A stretch of DNA of 64,000 nucleotides from an uncultured Pseudomonadota bacterium (GTDB lineage Bacteria; Pseudomonadota; Gammaproteobacteria; Burkholderiales; CAIKXV01): NCBI GenBank assembly GCA_903831455.1, contig CAIKXV010000197.1, positions 1 through 64,000 on the forward strand, written 5' to 3'. This document shows, one piece after another, positions 27,401-57,991 of this stretch (within the stretch, counting starts at the first letter, position 1; each line of letters begins with the position of its first letter). The notes beneath the pieces were generated by a model that did no database searches, had not been told where the DNA came from, and was given only the letters and a program-made list of their open reading frames with translations. A program made the position numbers and the translations under genes.

Positions 27401-27626
27401 CGCCACCGGCGAGGGGGCCGAATCGCGGGCGCCGATCGGGCTTGCGGTGGTCGGCGGACTGCTGTTCTCGCAGTTGCTGACCCTCTACATCACCCCCACC
27501 TTCTTCGTGAGCCTCGACCGGGTGACCCGCTGGATGCGCGGCGACCGGCGCCGTCCCGAGGACGCGCCCTACGAGCCGCCGCCCGAGCGCGGCGGCACGC
27601 CGGCCCTGGAGACCGCCACGCGCTGA
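24471..27626 (+). CDS. RND efflux permease (HAE1/MdtBC-like)
   Basis: 1051-residue inner-membrane proton-driven drug exporter of the AcrB/MdtB/MdtC class. The N-terminal helix follows the ISRLFIERPVATATLMIA hallmark. TM4 carries the proton-relay pair in GFVVDDAIVVLENIAR near residue 403, and TM10 carries the conserved lysine in GLVKKNGIMMVDF near 921. Two large periplasmic loops are in the expected places (about 35-330 and 560-860). AGGAG lies about seven bases before the ATG. It is the last gene of the tolC-like/adaptor/permease operon. The substrate is not predictable. No TetR or two-component regulator gene is adjacent, which is unusual for such operons. Confidence 0.95.
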   Translation: MSNASISRLFIERPVATATLMIALVFFGLMGFKKLPVNELPNVDFPTILVTAQLPGANPENMATTVATVLERQFSTIAGLDTMSSVSYDGSVRITLQFDLERDIDAAAQDVQSAISTALRRLPDGMEPPSMRKVNPADSPILFLAFTGENIALSKLNEFAETRIAQRLSMISGVAQVQVYGAQKYALRLFVDPSKLARRNLGLEQVVNAVQQGNSNLPSGSLDGRARQYSVKVDGSIDTAAQFRNVVVAYRDGAPVRFGDIGRVEEGVANDRSWTWFNNQRAIVLGVQRQPGSNTIEVVRKINELLPELTPALPAGAKMDVVFDRSEFIKASINQVYVKLLTATTFVVLVILVFLRNARATLITALVLPTSMMGTFGIMYLLGYSINNLSLIAIILAVGFVVDDAIVVLENIARHMEMGKTRLQAAFDGSKEIGFTILSMTVSLVAVFLPILFMGGLLGRLFTEFAVTVGIAVALSGIISLSLTPMLCSRYLTTSHSHFFLFDWFEALFEASKRGYERSLRWCMRHRWTMLLLSVVVLWGTWQLFQIVPKGFIPRQDTGVINVTTRGPEGLPFEEMARRQQVVTSTVMANPNVAGVRSSAGQGFGGVLQTNVGSMTVRLKPRSEREDRADAVIEQLREAFRGPASQGLRLFFSNPPAVNLGGGISSADYQLVIASSDLRALYGPAEDLERALRDVRTVRDVNTSLELRNPELRVHILRDRAAVLGITPQQIEAALYNAFGGRQISTLYSDTDQYDVMIEVDKPFQTDINALSKIYIQSPSGVTVPLSTVARIGRGVGPKSVQHFGQLAAVTLSFNTAVGASVGDAVQDALRVARDTLPPEISINLTGSAKFFQQSTQSLPILLLVTIVVIYGVLAILYEHFGHPITILTALPLAGFGAVLTLIAFGQELNIFSFVGIILLVGLVKKNGIMMVDFALQLQRERRLNPIDAIVEASVVRFRPIMMTSFAAIFATLPIATATGEGAESRAPIGLAVVGGLLFSQLLTLYITPTFFVSLDRVTRWMRGDRRRPEDAPYEPPPERGGTPALETATR

Positions 27627-28064
27627 CGGGCAGCGCGGCCGCGACGCGGCGGGCCTCGCCCGATCCGCGTCCCCGGCGGACGGACGACCGGGGAGGGGCA
27701 CGCCCTTCCCCTCGCAGGCCGGGAGCCGTCGCCGGCGGCGGGCTGCCACCCGGGCGCCGCGCCTTCGCCGCGGAGATCGAGCCCGCGGATGGGGGACCGC
27801 CGTCCCGCTCGGGGAGCCGCTCGCGCCGCGGATCGGGGCCCGGGCTCCCCGGGGGCGACCCGCGGCACCCGACGAGGAGCAGGCCGACTCGCGAAGGAGC
27901 GACATTTCCCTAAAGCCGCCTCCCCCGGGGCCGATAACAGGACCGTGGACCACGCCGCGCGCGGCTGGCGGCCCCTCCTCCCCACCGATGCGCCCGGCCC
28001 CCTCCTGCCGGACGGTCGGCGCCCGGCGCGGCCCACATTTTCCCTGCGACCGGAGCCCCTGCCA
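27627..28064. other. Intergenic region with sigma-28 promoter (438 bases)
   Basis: Gap between the efflux permease and the HDOD gene. The first 280 bases are GC-rich with small hairpins (for example CCCCGG/CCGGGG near 27673) that could end the efflux transcript. ORFs in all frames are Arg/Pro/Gly-rich shadows. The single striking element is the sigma-28 promoter at 27911-27937, followed by a leader of about 120 bases. Confidence 0.6.
27911..27937 (+). promoter_or_regulatory. Sigma-28 (FliA) type promoter upstream of the HDOD gene
   Basis: TAAAG followed by three bases, then exactly 11 bases, then GCCGATAA. This matches the flagellar sigma consensus TAAAGTTT-N11-GCCGATAA in the -35 core and in all eight bases of the -10. 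Such a match with correct spacing is improbable in sequence this GC-rich. It points at the HDOD gene about 127 bases downstream and places it in the motility/chemotaxis regulon. Confidence 0.8.
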
Positions 28065-29042
28065 GTGACCGATTCCCTCGATTTCACCACCCCGGCCGCA
28101 CCGCCGCCCCCGACGGCCCGTCCTGCCACGGCACCCGCGTCGGCCTCGCCGCTCGCCCGCCTGCAGGCGAAGCTCGCCACGCTGGACCTGTCGAGCATGC
28201 CGCGGGTGTCACCGGTGGCGAGTCGACTCGCCGCGATGGGTCCGGATGATCTCGAGTCTTCCAAGGAATTCTGCGCGCTGATCGAACAGGAGCCGATCTG
28301 CGTGGCCCGCCTGATCGGGCTAGCCAACTCGGTGGCCTACGGTGCGCCGGGCAAGAAGTTCAACAACCTCGAGCAGGCGGTGCTGCGCATCGGCCTGGAG
28401 CGCGCCGCGCAGATCGCCTTCGGCATGCTCTGCGGCCAGGCGATCAACAAGGGGCTGTCGCCGCAATGGCGAGAGTTCCTCTGGCTGCACGCCATCGCGG
28501 TCGCGCACGGCGCGAGCCTGCTCGCCAACAAGGTCAACCCGCAGGAACGCGCCAACGCCTACCTCGCGGGGATGATCTACGACATCGGCACCCTGGTCAT
28601 CGAGTGCCTGCAGCCCGGCACGCTCGACCTGCTGCTGCAGACGGCCGAGAACCGCGGACTCAAGCTCGGTCGGGTCGAGAACGCGATGCTGGGCAAGGCC
28701 CGCAAGGCCGTCACGCACGCGCTGCTCGATCGCTGGTCGCTGCCGACGGACATCGTCGTCGGCATCGCCGAACGCGACCCGGGTGCCATCGACATGAACT
28801 CGCTGTCGGCCATCCTCGCGCTGGCCGACGAAATGGCGCGCTCGGGCACGGTGCTGGGCTCGGTGTATGCCGACACGCCCGCGCCGTTCGTGCTCGACTC
28901 GATCGTGGTCGAGGACTTCAGCCCGCAGCTCACCGCGCTGGTCAGTTGCGGCGATGCGGACCTGGAGAAGATCACCGAGCGTCTGGCCGACCAGGTGCAG
29001 GTGCTGCGCTCGACTGCCCAGAGCTTCTCGGACGTGGCCTGA
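28065..29042 (+). CDS. HDOD-domain protein
   Basis: 325-residue protein. After a Pro/Ala-rich N-terminus (about residues 1-40), an HDOD domain runs from about 45 to 250: MPRVSPVASRLAAM, EQEPICVARLIGLANSVAYG, the helix NNLEQAVLRIGLERA and LAGMIYDIGTLVIECLQP. HDOD domains are HD-fold relatives lacking full metal ligands and act in signalling, often in motility or c-di-GMP circuits. The start is uncertain: GTG at 28065 has GGAG ten bases upstream and gives a compact protein, while an in-frame GTG at 27945 would be leaderless relative to the sigma-28 promoter. Regulation by FliA is the clear inference. Confidence 0.85.
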   Translation: MTDSLDFTTPAAPPPPTARPATAPASASPLARLQAKLATLDLSSMPRVSPVASRLAAMGPDDLESSKEFCALIEQEPICVARLIGLANSVAYGAPGKKFNNLEQAVLRIGLERAAQIAFGMLCGQAINKGLSPQWREFLWLHAIAVAHGASLLANKVNPQERANAYLAGMIYDIGTLVIECLQPGTLDLLLQTAENRGLKLGRVENAMLGKARKAVTHALLDRWSLPTDIVVGIAERDPGAIDMNSLSAILALADEMARSGTVLGSVYADTPAPFVLDSIVVEDFSPQLTALVSCGDADLEKITERLADQVQVLRSTAQSFSDVA

Positions 29043-29147
29043 CGCCGCAGGCCCGTAGCGCGCCCGCTCGAACCGGGCGCACGACAGCGCATGGACGGGG
29101 CGCGAGGCGCGTCACGCGTCGCGGGCCTGCACTAGGCTGCGGGCACC

Positions 29148-30452
29148 ATGCTCCCGCGTCCTCTCCCCGCAGGCCTGCCGCGACACGACCCGTCCCCTTC
29201 GATCCGCCGTCGGCCGGCCCGGCCGCGGCGGTCGAACGCGCTACTCGCCGCGGGGCTGATGGCCAGCACGCTGGCCGCCGCGAACCCGGGCACGGTGCCG
29301 AAACCCACGGCCGAGGCGTCCCCGCGCGGCGCTGCCGCGAGCGCCGCACCCGCACCGGCCTGTACGCTGCCGCCGCGGGGCTGGTTCATGCCGGGGCGTC
29401 CCGCAGCCGCGGCCCCATGGAGCGACGCGCTCGGCCATTCCATCGTGCTGCTCGGCGAGCGCCACGACAGTGCGGATCACCACCGCTGGCAGTTGCAGGT
29501 GCTGGCGGCACTGCACGCGCAGCGCCCCGACCTCGTCATCGGGCTGGAGATGTTTCCGCGCCGGGTGCAGCCCGCGCTGGATCGGTGGATCGCCGGTGAG
29601 CTGACCGAAGCCGACTTCCTGCGCCAGTCGGACTGGGCGCGGGCGTGGGGCTTCGACGCCGCGCTCTACCTGCCGATCCTGCACTTCGCGCGGATGAATC
29701 GCATCCCCCTCATTGCGCTCAACGTCGAGCGTTCGCTGGTGCGGGCGGTGGCGAACAGTGGCTGGGATGCGGTGCCCGTCGAGCAACGCGAGGGCGTCTC
29801 GCGCCCTGCGCCTGCGCCCGAGCGGCAACTCGCGAGCCTGCGCGAGATCCACCAGGCGCATCCCGCGCCCGCCGGTTCCAGCGCCACGCCCGACGCACTG
29901 CGCTTTCGCCGCTTCGTCGAGGCCCAGCTCGTCTGGGACCGCGCGATGGCCGAGGCACTCGCCAACCGACTGCGAGCGCGTCCCGGCGGCCTGCTGGTGG
30001 GCCTGGTCGGCACCGAGCACGCCCGCCGCGACCAGGGCGTGGCCCACCAGTTGATGGCGATGGGCCAGCCGACCCCCTACGTGATGCTGCCGCTCGATCG
30101 CGAACCCGGAGCCGCGTGTCCGGCGGCGAGTGCGGACCTCGCGCAGGCGTGGTTCGTGATCCCGTCCGCCGCACCCTCGGCCACACGCGAACGACCGAGG
30201 CTGGGGGTGTCGCTGGATACGCGCGATCGCGCCGTGGTGATCACGGCGGTCTCGCCCGGAAGCCTTGCCGCCCGCAGCGGCCTGCGCGCGGGCGATCGCG
30301 TCGTCTCGGTGGCGGGCCGGCCCGCGGAGGACGCATCGGTGGTCATCACCGCCGTGCGCGAGCAGCCCGCGGGCACGCTGTTGCCGATCACCGTCGCTCG
30401 CGAGGGGCGCGAGACCGAGGTGCTGGTGCGGTTTCCCGCAACGACCCCGTGA
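29148..30452 (+). CDS. ChaN-family (Tiki-like) protein fused to a C-terminal PDZ domain
   Basis: 434 residues. A long basic N-terminus and hydrophobic stretch (ALLAAGLMASTLAAAN) act as signal peptide; there is no lipobox cysteine, unlike classical ChaN lipoproteins. The ChaN domain (about 95-310) shows VLLGERHDSADHH, LVIGLEMFPRRVQPALD and WGFDAALYLPILHFARMN. ChaN proteins bind heme and share the EreA/Tiki fold. From about 347 a PDZ domain follows (LGVSLDTRDRAVVITAVSPG, SGLRAGDRVVSVAGRP). It is expected in the periplasm. The M1-type peptidase gene starts 50 bases later, so the two may be co-transcribed and may cooperate in peptide or heme handling (inference). Confidence 0.87.
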   Translation: MLPRPLPAGLPRHDPSPSIRRRPARPRRSNALLAAGLMASTLAAANPGTVPKPTAEASPRGAAASAAPAPACTLPPRGWFMPGRPAAAAPWSDALGHSIVLLGERHDSADHHRWQLQVLAALHAQRPDLVIGLEMFPRRVQPALDRWIAGELTEADFLRQSDWARAWGFDAALYLPILHFARMNRIPLIALNVERSLVRAVANSGWDAVPVEQREGVSRPAPAPERQLASLREIHQAHPAPAGSSATPDALRFRRFVEAQLVWDRAMAEALANRLRARPGGLLVGLVGTEHARRDQGVAHQLMAMGQPTPYVMLPLDREPGAACPAASADLAQAWFVIPSAAPSATRERPRLGVSLDTRDRAVVITAVSPGSLAARSGLRAGDRVVSVAGRPAEDASVVITAVREQPAGTLLPITVAREGRETEVLVRFPATTP

Positions 30453-55005: not shown

Positions 55006-55703
55006 GTCACCGACGACGCGTCCAGGTCGGCGGGCCTGTCGATGTCGGCAAGGATGCCGATGTCGTCCACGTCCAGCATCCGCACCTCGTGCGAGAGGGA
55101 CGCGACGACCGCACGCGCGCCCTCATCCCCGGTCAGCGCCGCGAGGCGACCGGCCAGCCGTCCGTGCAGGCCCACCGGATGCCCCCGCCGACCCTGACAG
55201 ACCGGCAGGACCACCGTCGCCCCGTCCTGGATGGCCTGGGCGACCCTCCGGACCGTCCCACTGCTGACGTGGGGCATGTCGCCCAGCATCACCACCCAGC
55301 CGCCGGCGTCGGGTGTTGCCCGGACCCCGGCCGCGAGACTGTGCCCCATTCCGTCCACCGCCTCGGGGCACTCGATGACCCGTACGCCAGCCTCCGCGGC
55401 GAGTTCCGCCATCCGCGTGCCGGGACGCACCACGCAGGCCACCTGCGGCCAGCCCGCCCGCGCCACCTGGAGCGTGGCCGCTCCGACCTCCCGGCCATCC
55501 GGCAGGCGTGCCGCGAGCTTGTCGCCGCCGAAGCGCCGCGACAGTCCCGCGCCGAGGACCAGCACCACCGGACACCGGGCGGAGGGCTCATCGGCCACCT
55601 TCGCAGGCGACGCCTGCGCCCGCGGGTCGGTGCCCGCGGTTCCGGCGGTGTCGCTCAAGCCCGGCCGTCGCTGGCCGTTATCGGATTGTCCCTTGATGGA
55701 CAC
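55002..55703 (-). CDS. MobA/MocA-like nucleotidyltransferase
   Basis: 233-residue NTP-transferase fold protein of the molybdenum-cofactor guanylyl/cytidylyltransferase type. The nucleotide-binding motif is VVLVLGAGLSRRFGGDKLAA near residue 46 (the family usually has AAG; Gly replaces the first Ala). The metal/base segment is WVVMLGDMPHVSSGTVRRV near 138 and GRRGHPVGLHGRL follows near 172. About 45 residues of low-complexity N-terminus precede the fold. MocA enzymes make MCD cofactor for xanthine dehydrogenase-family hydroxylases, which would suit the Mo hydroxylase at 42.7-45.4 kb (inference). GTG start with AAGGGGGG upstream. It converges on and overlaps the Crp gene by four bases. Confidence 0.85.
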   Translation of the reverse strand: MSIKGQSDNGQRRPGLSDTAGTAGTDPRAQASPAKVADEPSARCPVVLVLGAGLSRRFGGDKLAARLPDGREVGAATLQVARAGWPQVACVVRPGTRMAELAAEAGVRVIECPEAVDGMGHSLAAGVRATPDAGGWVVMLGDMPHVSSGTVRRVAQAIQDGATVVLPVCQGRRGHPVGLHGRLAGRLAALTGDEGARAVVASLSHEVRMLDVDDIGILADIDRPADLDASSVT

Positions 55704-55830: not shown

Positions 55831-56226
55831 ATGTCACAGACCCGCCTCAAGTTCCTCGTCGTCGACGACTTCTCACCGATGCGCAAGATCATCCGCAACC
55901 TGCTGAAGGACCGCGGCTACGACGACGTCGAGGAGGCGGACAACGGCGAGGCCGCGCTCGAACGCCTGCGCAACGGCCGATTCGACTTCGTGATCTCGGA
56001 CTGGAGCATGCCGACCATGAGCGGCATCGACCTGCTGCGCGCCATCCGCGCCGATCCCCGGCTGCGTGGACTGCCGGTGCTGCTGGTCACCGCCGAGGCC
56101 AAGCGCGAGAACATCATCGAGGCTGCGCAGGCGCGGGCCTCCGGCTACATCCTCAAGCCGTTCACCGGCGCCACCCTCGAGGCGAAGCTCGACGCGATCC
56201 TCAAGGGCGGCGCGCGCATCGCCTGA
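55831..56226 (+). CDS. cheY: Chemotaxis response regulator CheY
   Basis: 131-residue single-domain receiver. The acidic pair D12-D13 ([10 protein letters not shown]), phospho-acceptor D57 (ISDWSMP), the Thr of LLVTAEAK near 87 and K109 (LKPFTG) are all in place. The [13 protein letters not shown] stretch is CheY-like. There is no output domain, so it acts by binding a partner such as FliM. It lies 13 bases upstream of cheA, on the same transcript. No methyl-accepting receptor, cheW, cheR, cheB or cheZ is nearby. I see no sigma-28 sequence in the 127 bases upstream. Confidence 0.93.
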
Positions 56227-56239
56227 TCGCCCCGCCGAC

Positions 56240-57991
56240 ATGTCCGACCTCTCCGCCGATCGCGAGCTGATGCAGGACTTCGCTGCCGAGTGCGGCGAGC
56301 TGCTGGCCGAGCTCGACACGCGGCTGGTCGAACTCGAGCGCAGCCGCGGCGATATCGGGCTGCTGGATGCCGCGTTCCGCGGCTTCCACACCATCAAGGG
56401 AAGCGCCGGGTTCCTCGGCCTCGATTCGCTGGTCGACCTCTGCGACCGCAGCGAAAGCGTGCTCGATCGGGTCAGGCGCGGCGCGCTCACCCTCGATGCC
56501 GGCGTGATGGACGTCATCCTCGAGGCCACCGCGAGCGTACGTGGCATGGTCGACGCGATCCGCCAGGGCGCTCCCTCGATCGAAGCCCCCGACGACCTGC
56601 TCGCGCGGCTGGCCTCGGTGCTGCTGCGCGCGCGCGCGGCGCCTGACACCCGCGGCACCCAGGCGGACCTCGAGGCGCTGTTCGACGCCTTCGTCGCGGG
56701 CGCACCCGACGAGGAGGCGCCCGCGGCCGCGGAGGCCGCCCATCCGCCGTGGGGACGGCGTGCGTCCGATCAGCCCGGAACCCGCAGTCGTCGTTCCGGC
56801 CGCCGCGAGGTCGACCCGGAGCTCGCTCGCGAGAACACGCTTCGGGTGGACACCCACCGGCTGGAGGAACTCCACGAACTCGCGCGCCAGATCGCCCACT
56901 CGCAGCGCGCACTGACCCGCCTGCGCGCCGAGCTCGCCCCGAGCGGATCGGTGACGGGCGCCTTCGACGAGGCGCTCGGCCGACTCGAGGGGCTGGTGGG
57001 AGACCTCCAGGCGGCGGTGATGCGCACCCGCCAGCAGCCCGCGGCGCGCCTCTTCCAGCGCTATCCGCGCCTGGTCCGAGACCTGGGTCGCCAGCTCGGC
57101 CGCGAGGTCGCGCTGGAGCTCGCAGGCGAACAGACGGAACTGGACCAGACGGTGATCGAGGAGCTCAACGCCCCGCTGATGCACCTGGTCCGCAACGCGA
57201 TCGACCACGGCATCGAGCCGCCAGCGGAGCGCGAAGCGGCCGGCAAGGCGAGGCGCGGAACCTTGCGCCTCGAGGCCCGGATAGGCGGCGAGCAGGTGGT
57301 GATCGAGATCATCGACGACGGCCGCGGGATGGATCCAGCGCGCCTGCGCACGAGCGCCGTGGCCCGCGGACTGGTGTCCGCCGAGCAGGCCGCCGCGCTC
57401 GACGACGCGGCCGCCCTCCGGCTCGCCCTGCTGCCCGGACTGTCCACGCGCGACCAGGTGTCCTCGATCTCCGGCCGCGGCGTGGGCATGGACGTGGTCC
57501 GGCGCAACATCGAACGGCTCAACGGACGCATCGAGCTCGACTCCGTCCCGGGCGAGGGCACCTGCATCGCGATCACCCTGCCGCGGACGCTGCCGGTGCT
57601 ACCGGTCCAGATCGTGCACGCCGGTCCGCTGGCCCTGGCCGTGCCGCTCTCCGACCTGCGCGAGATCGTCCCGATCCCCACCCGCGCCCGCAAGGCCGCG
57701 ACCCTGCCCGCGGAGATCGTCGTGGCCGGCGAGACGCTGCCGATGGCCAGCCTCGCCCGGGCGCTGGGCACCGAAGCGGAGCGCGGCGCCGCCCGGTACG
57801 GGATCGTTACCGCGGTCGGCGGCGCCGTGCGTGTGCTCGCGGTCGATCGGCTGGGAGCGCGCGAGAACGTCGTTCTCCAGCCGCCTGCGGGCGCCGCCCG
57901 GGCCGGCGTGTCGGGGCGCGCCCTGGCCGCCGACGGATCGACCCTGCTGGTGCTCGAACTCGACACCCTGCCGGCAGCCGCGCCCGGCTGA
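56240..57991 (+). CDS. cheA: Chemotaxis histidine kinase CheA
   Basis: 583-residue CheA-type kinase. The P1 Hpt domain (residues about 1-110) has its phosphorylated His in FHTIKGSAG (His50). A linker of about 80 residues with no obvious P2 CheY-binding domain follows, then P3 dimerisation helices (ELHELARQIAHSQRALTRL). The P4 ATPase has an N box (MHLVRNAIDHG near 315), G1 (DDGRGMD near 359) and G2 (GRGVGMDVV near 412). A C-terminal CheW-like P5 domain starts near 450. ATG 56240 follows cheY by 13 bases. The short linker may mean CheY is phosphorylated without a docking domain. Confidence 0.93.
   Translation: MSDLSADRELMQDFAAECGELLAELDTRLVELERSRGDIGLLDAAFRGFHTIKGSAGFLGLDSLVDLCDRSESVLDRVRRGALTLDAGVMDVILEATASVRGMVDAIRQGAPSIEAPDDLLARLASVLLRARAAPDTRGTQADLEALFDAFVAGAPDEEAPAAAEAAHPPWGRRASDQPGTRSRRSGRREVDPELARENTLRVDTHRLEELHELARQIAHSQRALTRLRAELAPSGSVTGAFDEALGRLEGLVGDLQAAVMRTRQQPAARLFQRYPRLVRDLGRQLGREVALELAGEQTELDQTVIEELNAPLMHLVRNAIDHGIEPPAEREAAGKARRGTLRLEARIGGEQVVIEIIDDGRGMDPARLRTSAVARGLVSAEQAAALDDAAALRLALLPGLSTRDQVSSISGRGVGMDVVRRNIERLNGRIELDSVPGEGTCIAITLPRTLPVLPVQIVHAGPLALAVPLSDLREIVPIPTRARKAATLPAEIVVAGETLPMASLARALGTEAERGAARYGIVTAVGGAVRVLAVDRLGARENVVLQPPAGAARAGVSGRALAADGSTLLVLELDTLPAAAPG

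Follow-up and report, generated by a model that had tools for sequence, protein, structure and literature searches.

The locus lies in a 64,000-nt stretch of DNA (the window) on contig C197 of a 306-contig draft betaproteobacterial bin of 4.1 Mb and 98% completeness. On the plus strand at 28065..29042, a gene encodes an HDOD signalling protein of 325 aa and begins with a GTG that has a ribosome site, GGAG (28052-28055), 9 nt upstream. The N-terminus, M-x-DSLDFT, is conserved in eight relatives, which supports the choice of this start codon. Upstream, also on the plus strand, is a FliA-type site, TAAAG-N14-GCCGATAA, at 27911-27937, with the GTG 127 nt downstream. It consists of the -35 octamer TAAAGCCG (27911..27918), whose TAAAG core is invariant in nine genomes, an 11-nt spacer CCTCCCCCGGG (27919-27929), and the -10 octamer GCCGATAA (27930..27937), 11 nt 3' of the -35 octamer. 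Based on distance from the -10 box, transcription is predicted to start at 27942..27945, which would leave a leader of about 120 nt. The letters of the TAAAG core, the -10 box and the 11-base spacing after an 8-base -35 box are as the initial annotation had given them, but its description of the site as a textbook sigma-28 promoter was slightly too strong: measured against the published E. coli consensus, TAAAGTTT-n11-GCCGATAA (PMC2859248), all 13 of 13 core bases (TAAAG and the -10 box) are identical, but positions 6-8 of the -35 octamer, a less strong part of that consensus, read CCG instead of TTT. The missing TTT is not disqualifying, since the same positions also vary at flagellin and chemoreceptor sites of the genus; at the HDOD sites of relatives, the octamer ends in GTC or ATC. 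No Rfam match was found in the stretch.

HDOD proteins are widespread, and to our knowledge no settled mechanism has been established for them. HDOD was the only Pfam domain found in the window protein (PF08668; E=5e-32, 111.4 bits against a curated cut-off of 22.9), with no YbaK-like or receiver domain. The domain occupies residues 45-236 and is followed by a helical C-terminus. The structure model had a mean pLDDT of 78, with values below 50 in the N-terminal tail (residues 1-26), and it displayed the all-helical HDOD fold, with Foldseek matches to other HDOD proteins (3hc1, 9qzk, 3i7a and 3mem). The HD pair, its column assigned by motif and not by structure superposition, reads Tyr-Asp (YDIG) in 15 of 15 aligned sequences, and the catalytic histidine is lost. 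Tyrosine at this aligned position argues against hydrolase activity.

The genome encodes FliA (277 bits, well above the curated cut-off) as well as flagellin-type genes. The perfect TAAAG-N14-GCCGATAA sequence occurs a single time in the 4.1 Mb, at the HDOD gene. A looser form, TMAAG-N14-GCCGWTAW, was matched exactly twice in the window, compared with 0 times in 100 dinucleotide shuffles, and five times in the whole genome: at flgM and flgK (both on C59), fliD (C123), the HDOD gene and cheY-cheA. Known motility genes therefore stand behind four of the five sites, and the fifth belongs to the HDOD gene. Relaxing the pattern weakened this signal. With up to three mismatches allowed, the window had five matches where two were expected, so loose matches carry little meaning, and sites with two mismatches numbered 25 genome-wide against 16 for a reversed control pattern.

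The initial annotation had proposed a scan of the genome with a FliA matrix. A near-equivalent of that scan used a box-only matrix whose training sites came from other genomes and included no HDOD site; the HDOD site scored 24.6, above fliD (23.3), flgM (20.1) and flgK (18.1), while the cheYA site scored 18.4. Scores of 21.1 and 20.8 went to two sites with one mismatch and no known motility target. The HDOD site was top-scoring both among the seven sites of this genome (G000) that were compared and within the window. An earlier 27-column matrix that included the spacer had placed it about fifth of 34; this matrix was replaced because its spacer columns derived from redundant orthologous sites, a choice made after the first result was known. 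A site at C112:11843 with a good 27-column score was set aside because it falls where a reading frame on the opposite strand ends and has no clear target.

Eight further members of the genus carry HDOD orthologues with 64-70% identity. Counting the window genome, 9 of 9 genomes with an assembled locus have a FliA-type site ahead of the HDOD gene or of a tandem HDOD pair; since these genomes are mutually related, the nine sites do not count as independent events. In the eight relatives, TAAAG is intact and GCCGWTAW carries at most one mismatch, and across all nine genomes the -10 box fits GCCG[AT]TA[AT] in seven and has one mismatch in the remaining two. Identity among the nine was 90% in the boxes and 48% in the spacer. 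Boxes that are kept while the spacer diverges point to selection on the promoter, the expected footprint of a working one. Two further genomes were uninformative, as the locus was apparently unassembled: in G004 the efflux gene runs to the edge of its contig, and no close match to that gene was found in G006, so the missing HDOD gene is probably an assembly matter in both. One match in one genome could be a chance consensus match in a GC-rich intergenic stretch, and two-mismatch sites are common, but chance is highly improbable as an explanation here and appears largely refuted by conservation of the site in nine genomes around a diverged spacer, alongside the absence of the looser exact form from shuffled windows and the 46 exact TAAAG-N14-GCCGWTAW sites in 11 genus genomes, where the reversed pattern occurs 5 times.

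Most members of the genus carry a tandem HDOD pair, the two proteins about 39% identical to each other, behind one site. The orthologue of the window gene is the second gene of the pair in L035, L036, L038, L039, L040 and L041. The window genome and G003 have a single HDOD gene, the first paralog being missing, and a search of the window from the efflux gene to the HDOD start codon found no relic of it. A leader like GTCACCGTTCGGTTCCTGGA between promoter and start codon is common to L037-L041 and others and is absent from the window genome.

We inspected the genes downstream of 30 of the 46 exact sites, using Pfam on representatives and assigning the remainder by motif or start-sequence similarity. 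These comprised 3 flagellin genes, 12 chemoreceptors (seven of one TarH/4HB type, four PAS-type and one other), 1 fliD, 7 HDOD genes, 3 Host_attach/baeRF12 genes and 4 others. The Host_attach / baeRF family 12 protein, found behind exact sites in three genus members (L085, L101, L105), is a candidate for an unexpected member of the flagellar regulon. At L081:616-1470, on the minus strand, the gene behind a FliA-type site encodes a 285-aa protein that matched nothing in Pfam; sites whose spacers resemble this one occur in five genomes (G001, G005, G006, G007 and G010), one downstream gene having been read. Sites seen in single genomes before genes for a DUF945 protein, a solute-binding-like protein and an unassigned protein (L107, L096 and L090, respectively) may be chance matches.

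The window also contains a second FliA-type site, TCAAG-N14-GCCGTTAT (in full, TCAAG-CCCGGCCGTCGCTG-GCCGTTAT), on the plus strand at 55655..55681, 149 nt before cheY (55831..56226, plus strand), which is followed by cheA (56240..57991, plus strand). This site was the second-best match in the window with the box-only matrix, and the earlier view of cheY-cheA as being without such a promoter is probably wrong. On the opposite strand, the beginning of a long mocA-like frame overlaps with the site. Since the family match in this frame does not begin until residue 47, the site may nevertheless lie between genes. Directly upstream of cheY, an exact FliA-type site was absent in nine relatives, with a weak one in L139. 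In G003, G005 and G007, the strand that carries cheY also has, about 3.7 kb further upstream, a chemoreceptor gene preceded by a FliA-type site of its own, which makes FliA control of the che locus plausible. The surroundings of the pair also vary: in the window, cheY-cheA adjoins the mocA-like gene and a Crp-type regulator, while in relatives cheY follows another coding frame and the cheY-cheA gap, at about 0.8 kb, is larger than in the window.

Outside the genus, a FliA-type site was absent from most of the other Burkholderiales HDOD genes inspected, suggesting that FliA control belongs to certain HDOD lineages and not to the whole family. An HDOD gene of family f16, whose product is 30% identical to the window protein, has a perfect TAAAG-N14-GCCGATAA site 57 nt before its ATG. 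In family f29, the orthologue (47% identical) is preceded, at a distance of about 160 nt, by TCAAG-N14-GCCGTAAA, which departs from the looser form at one position.

The HDOD gene sits in an efflux-ChaN neighbourhood, away from the flagellar clusters, and its surroundings keep the same gene order across the genus: outer-membrane efflux protein, HlyD, AcrB, the HDOD genes and a ChaN-like/PDZ gene. The AcrB-HDOD arrangement was also seen in a bin titled Bordetella parapertussis (L069, CAMDXD010000402.1), with 67-82% protein identity to the genus, and this title is probably wrong. In the window, the ChaN-like/PDZ gene (29148..30452) is the next gene, on the same strand and 105 nt downstream of the HDOD gene, and no terminator-like site was found between the two, so that co-transcription is possible. 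The promoter could then serve chiefly the ChaN-like/PDZ gene, whose place in the order is kept in the genus, with the HDOD gene as a passenger. We consider this very unlikely: HDOD genes are always promoter-proximal, tandem pairs included, and no ChaN-like gene adjoins the perfect-site HDOD gene of family f16. A second arrangement, in which the FliA-dependent promoter is minor and the HDOD gene is expressed mainly from another promoter or by read-through, draws on the same-strand efflux operon, whose end is about 440 nt upstream, with no intrinsic terminator found between it and the HDOD gene. However, a scan of 27500-29400 for the sigma-70 consensus, the only one used, found no sigma-70-like promoter, and the FliA boxes appear to be selected in all members of the genus, leaving a minor role for the FliA promoter unlikely.

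Together, these data suggest, with a probability of roughly 85%, that a FliA (class III) promoter drives a stand-alone HDOD gene of the flagellar/chemotaxis regulon. The link to the motility regulon drawn in the initial annotation is borne out insofar as FliA and flagellin are present, the site ranks with those of flgM, flgK and fliD, and it is conserved in every genome with the locus assembled. The site has the TAAAG core, the 11-nt spacing and GCCGATAA in common with FliA (sigma-28) class III promoters, and the company it keeps (flagellin, fliD, flgK, flgM and chemoreceptor sites) matches theirs; it differs in the CCG at -35 positions 6-8 and in its target, an HDOD gene located outside the flagellar clusters. 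Under FliA control, export of the anti-sigma factor FlgM would release FliA, which would then transcribe the HDOD gene along with flagellin, fliD, flgK, flgM and the chemoreceptor/che genes. The HDOD protein would be made when the motor is nearly complete, its timing presumably set by FlgM export. The protein itself is most likely a non-enzymatic adaptor, which would bind a partner protein or a nucleotide signal and thereby tune swimming or chemotaxis.

HDOD proteins have been linked to swimming in several genera (PMC6543031, PMC11004494, PMC11813219, PMC9040570). GsmR, Cj0248, PFL_0554 and PFL_5871 are reported to affect swimming (PMC11004494), and I2285 is an HDOD protein with an effect on motility in a Burkholderia (PMC9040570). 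GsmR of Xanthomonas campestris is an HDOD protein reported to affect flagellar gene expression; it is described in a title as a response regulator under positive Clp control (PMC6543031), whereas the window protein has no receiver domain. Cj0248 of Campylobacter jejuni (PDB 1vqr) has the HDOD fold in common with the window protein and has a motility phenotype, as cited in PMC11004494, but it is a weak structural match (E=0.012) and distant in sequence. Another parallel is PSPTO_4229 of Pseudomonas syringae DC3000, a stand-alone HDOD protein like the window protein. Passages of PMC11813219 describe it as che-like in a swimming selection, with swimming nearly abolished upon overexpression and Congo red staining unaltered, and FliA control is not mentioned in those passages; che-like fitness there finds its counterpart here in a promoter type shared with che genes.

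A FliA-controlled HDOD protein could instead act on attachment or c-di-GMP output and not on swimming, which would be compatible with the promoter assignment. According to PMC6543031, the HDOD proteins SadB and HdpA take part in surface attachment; c-di-GMP binding by SadB was examined there in a section headed 'SadB binds c-di-GMP'. SadB (PDB 9qzk) has the HDOD fold in common with the window protein and is its second-best structural match. However, SadB carries an N-terminal YbaK-like domain that is missing from the window protein, which is HDOD only, and PSPTO_4229, itself a stand-alone HDOD protein, resembles che genes in swimming selections and leaves Congo red staining unaltered. SadB of Pseudomonas is also a negative regulator of motility (PMC6543031). 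On balance, action on attachment or c-di-GMP output seems somewhat unlikely, and we lean toward a direct role of the HDOD protein in motility or chemotaxis. A rather doubtful extension of the FliA reading is that stand-alone HDOD proteins, tandem in most of the genus, might constitute an undescribed class III flagellar checkpoint, one that would be made only once the hook is complete and would set swimming behaviour by binding the chemotaxis or motor machinery.

FliA promoters and links between HDOD proteins and motility were both already known. In the open-access literature that we searched, a body of work that leaves subscription papers mostly outside, no report of a FliA-controlled HDOD gene came to light. 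The link is solid yet fairly ordinary, and the regulatory assignment is useful and testable. The conserved FliA promoter puts one HDOD family in the late flagellar regulon, and this placement indicates the probable timing of synthesis of the HDOD protein as well as its likely partner proteins.
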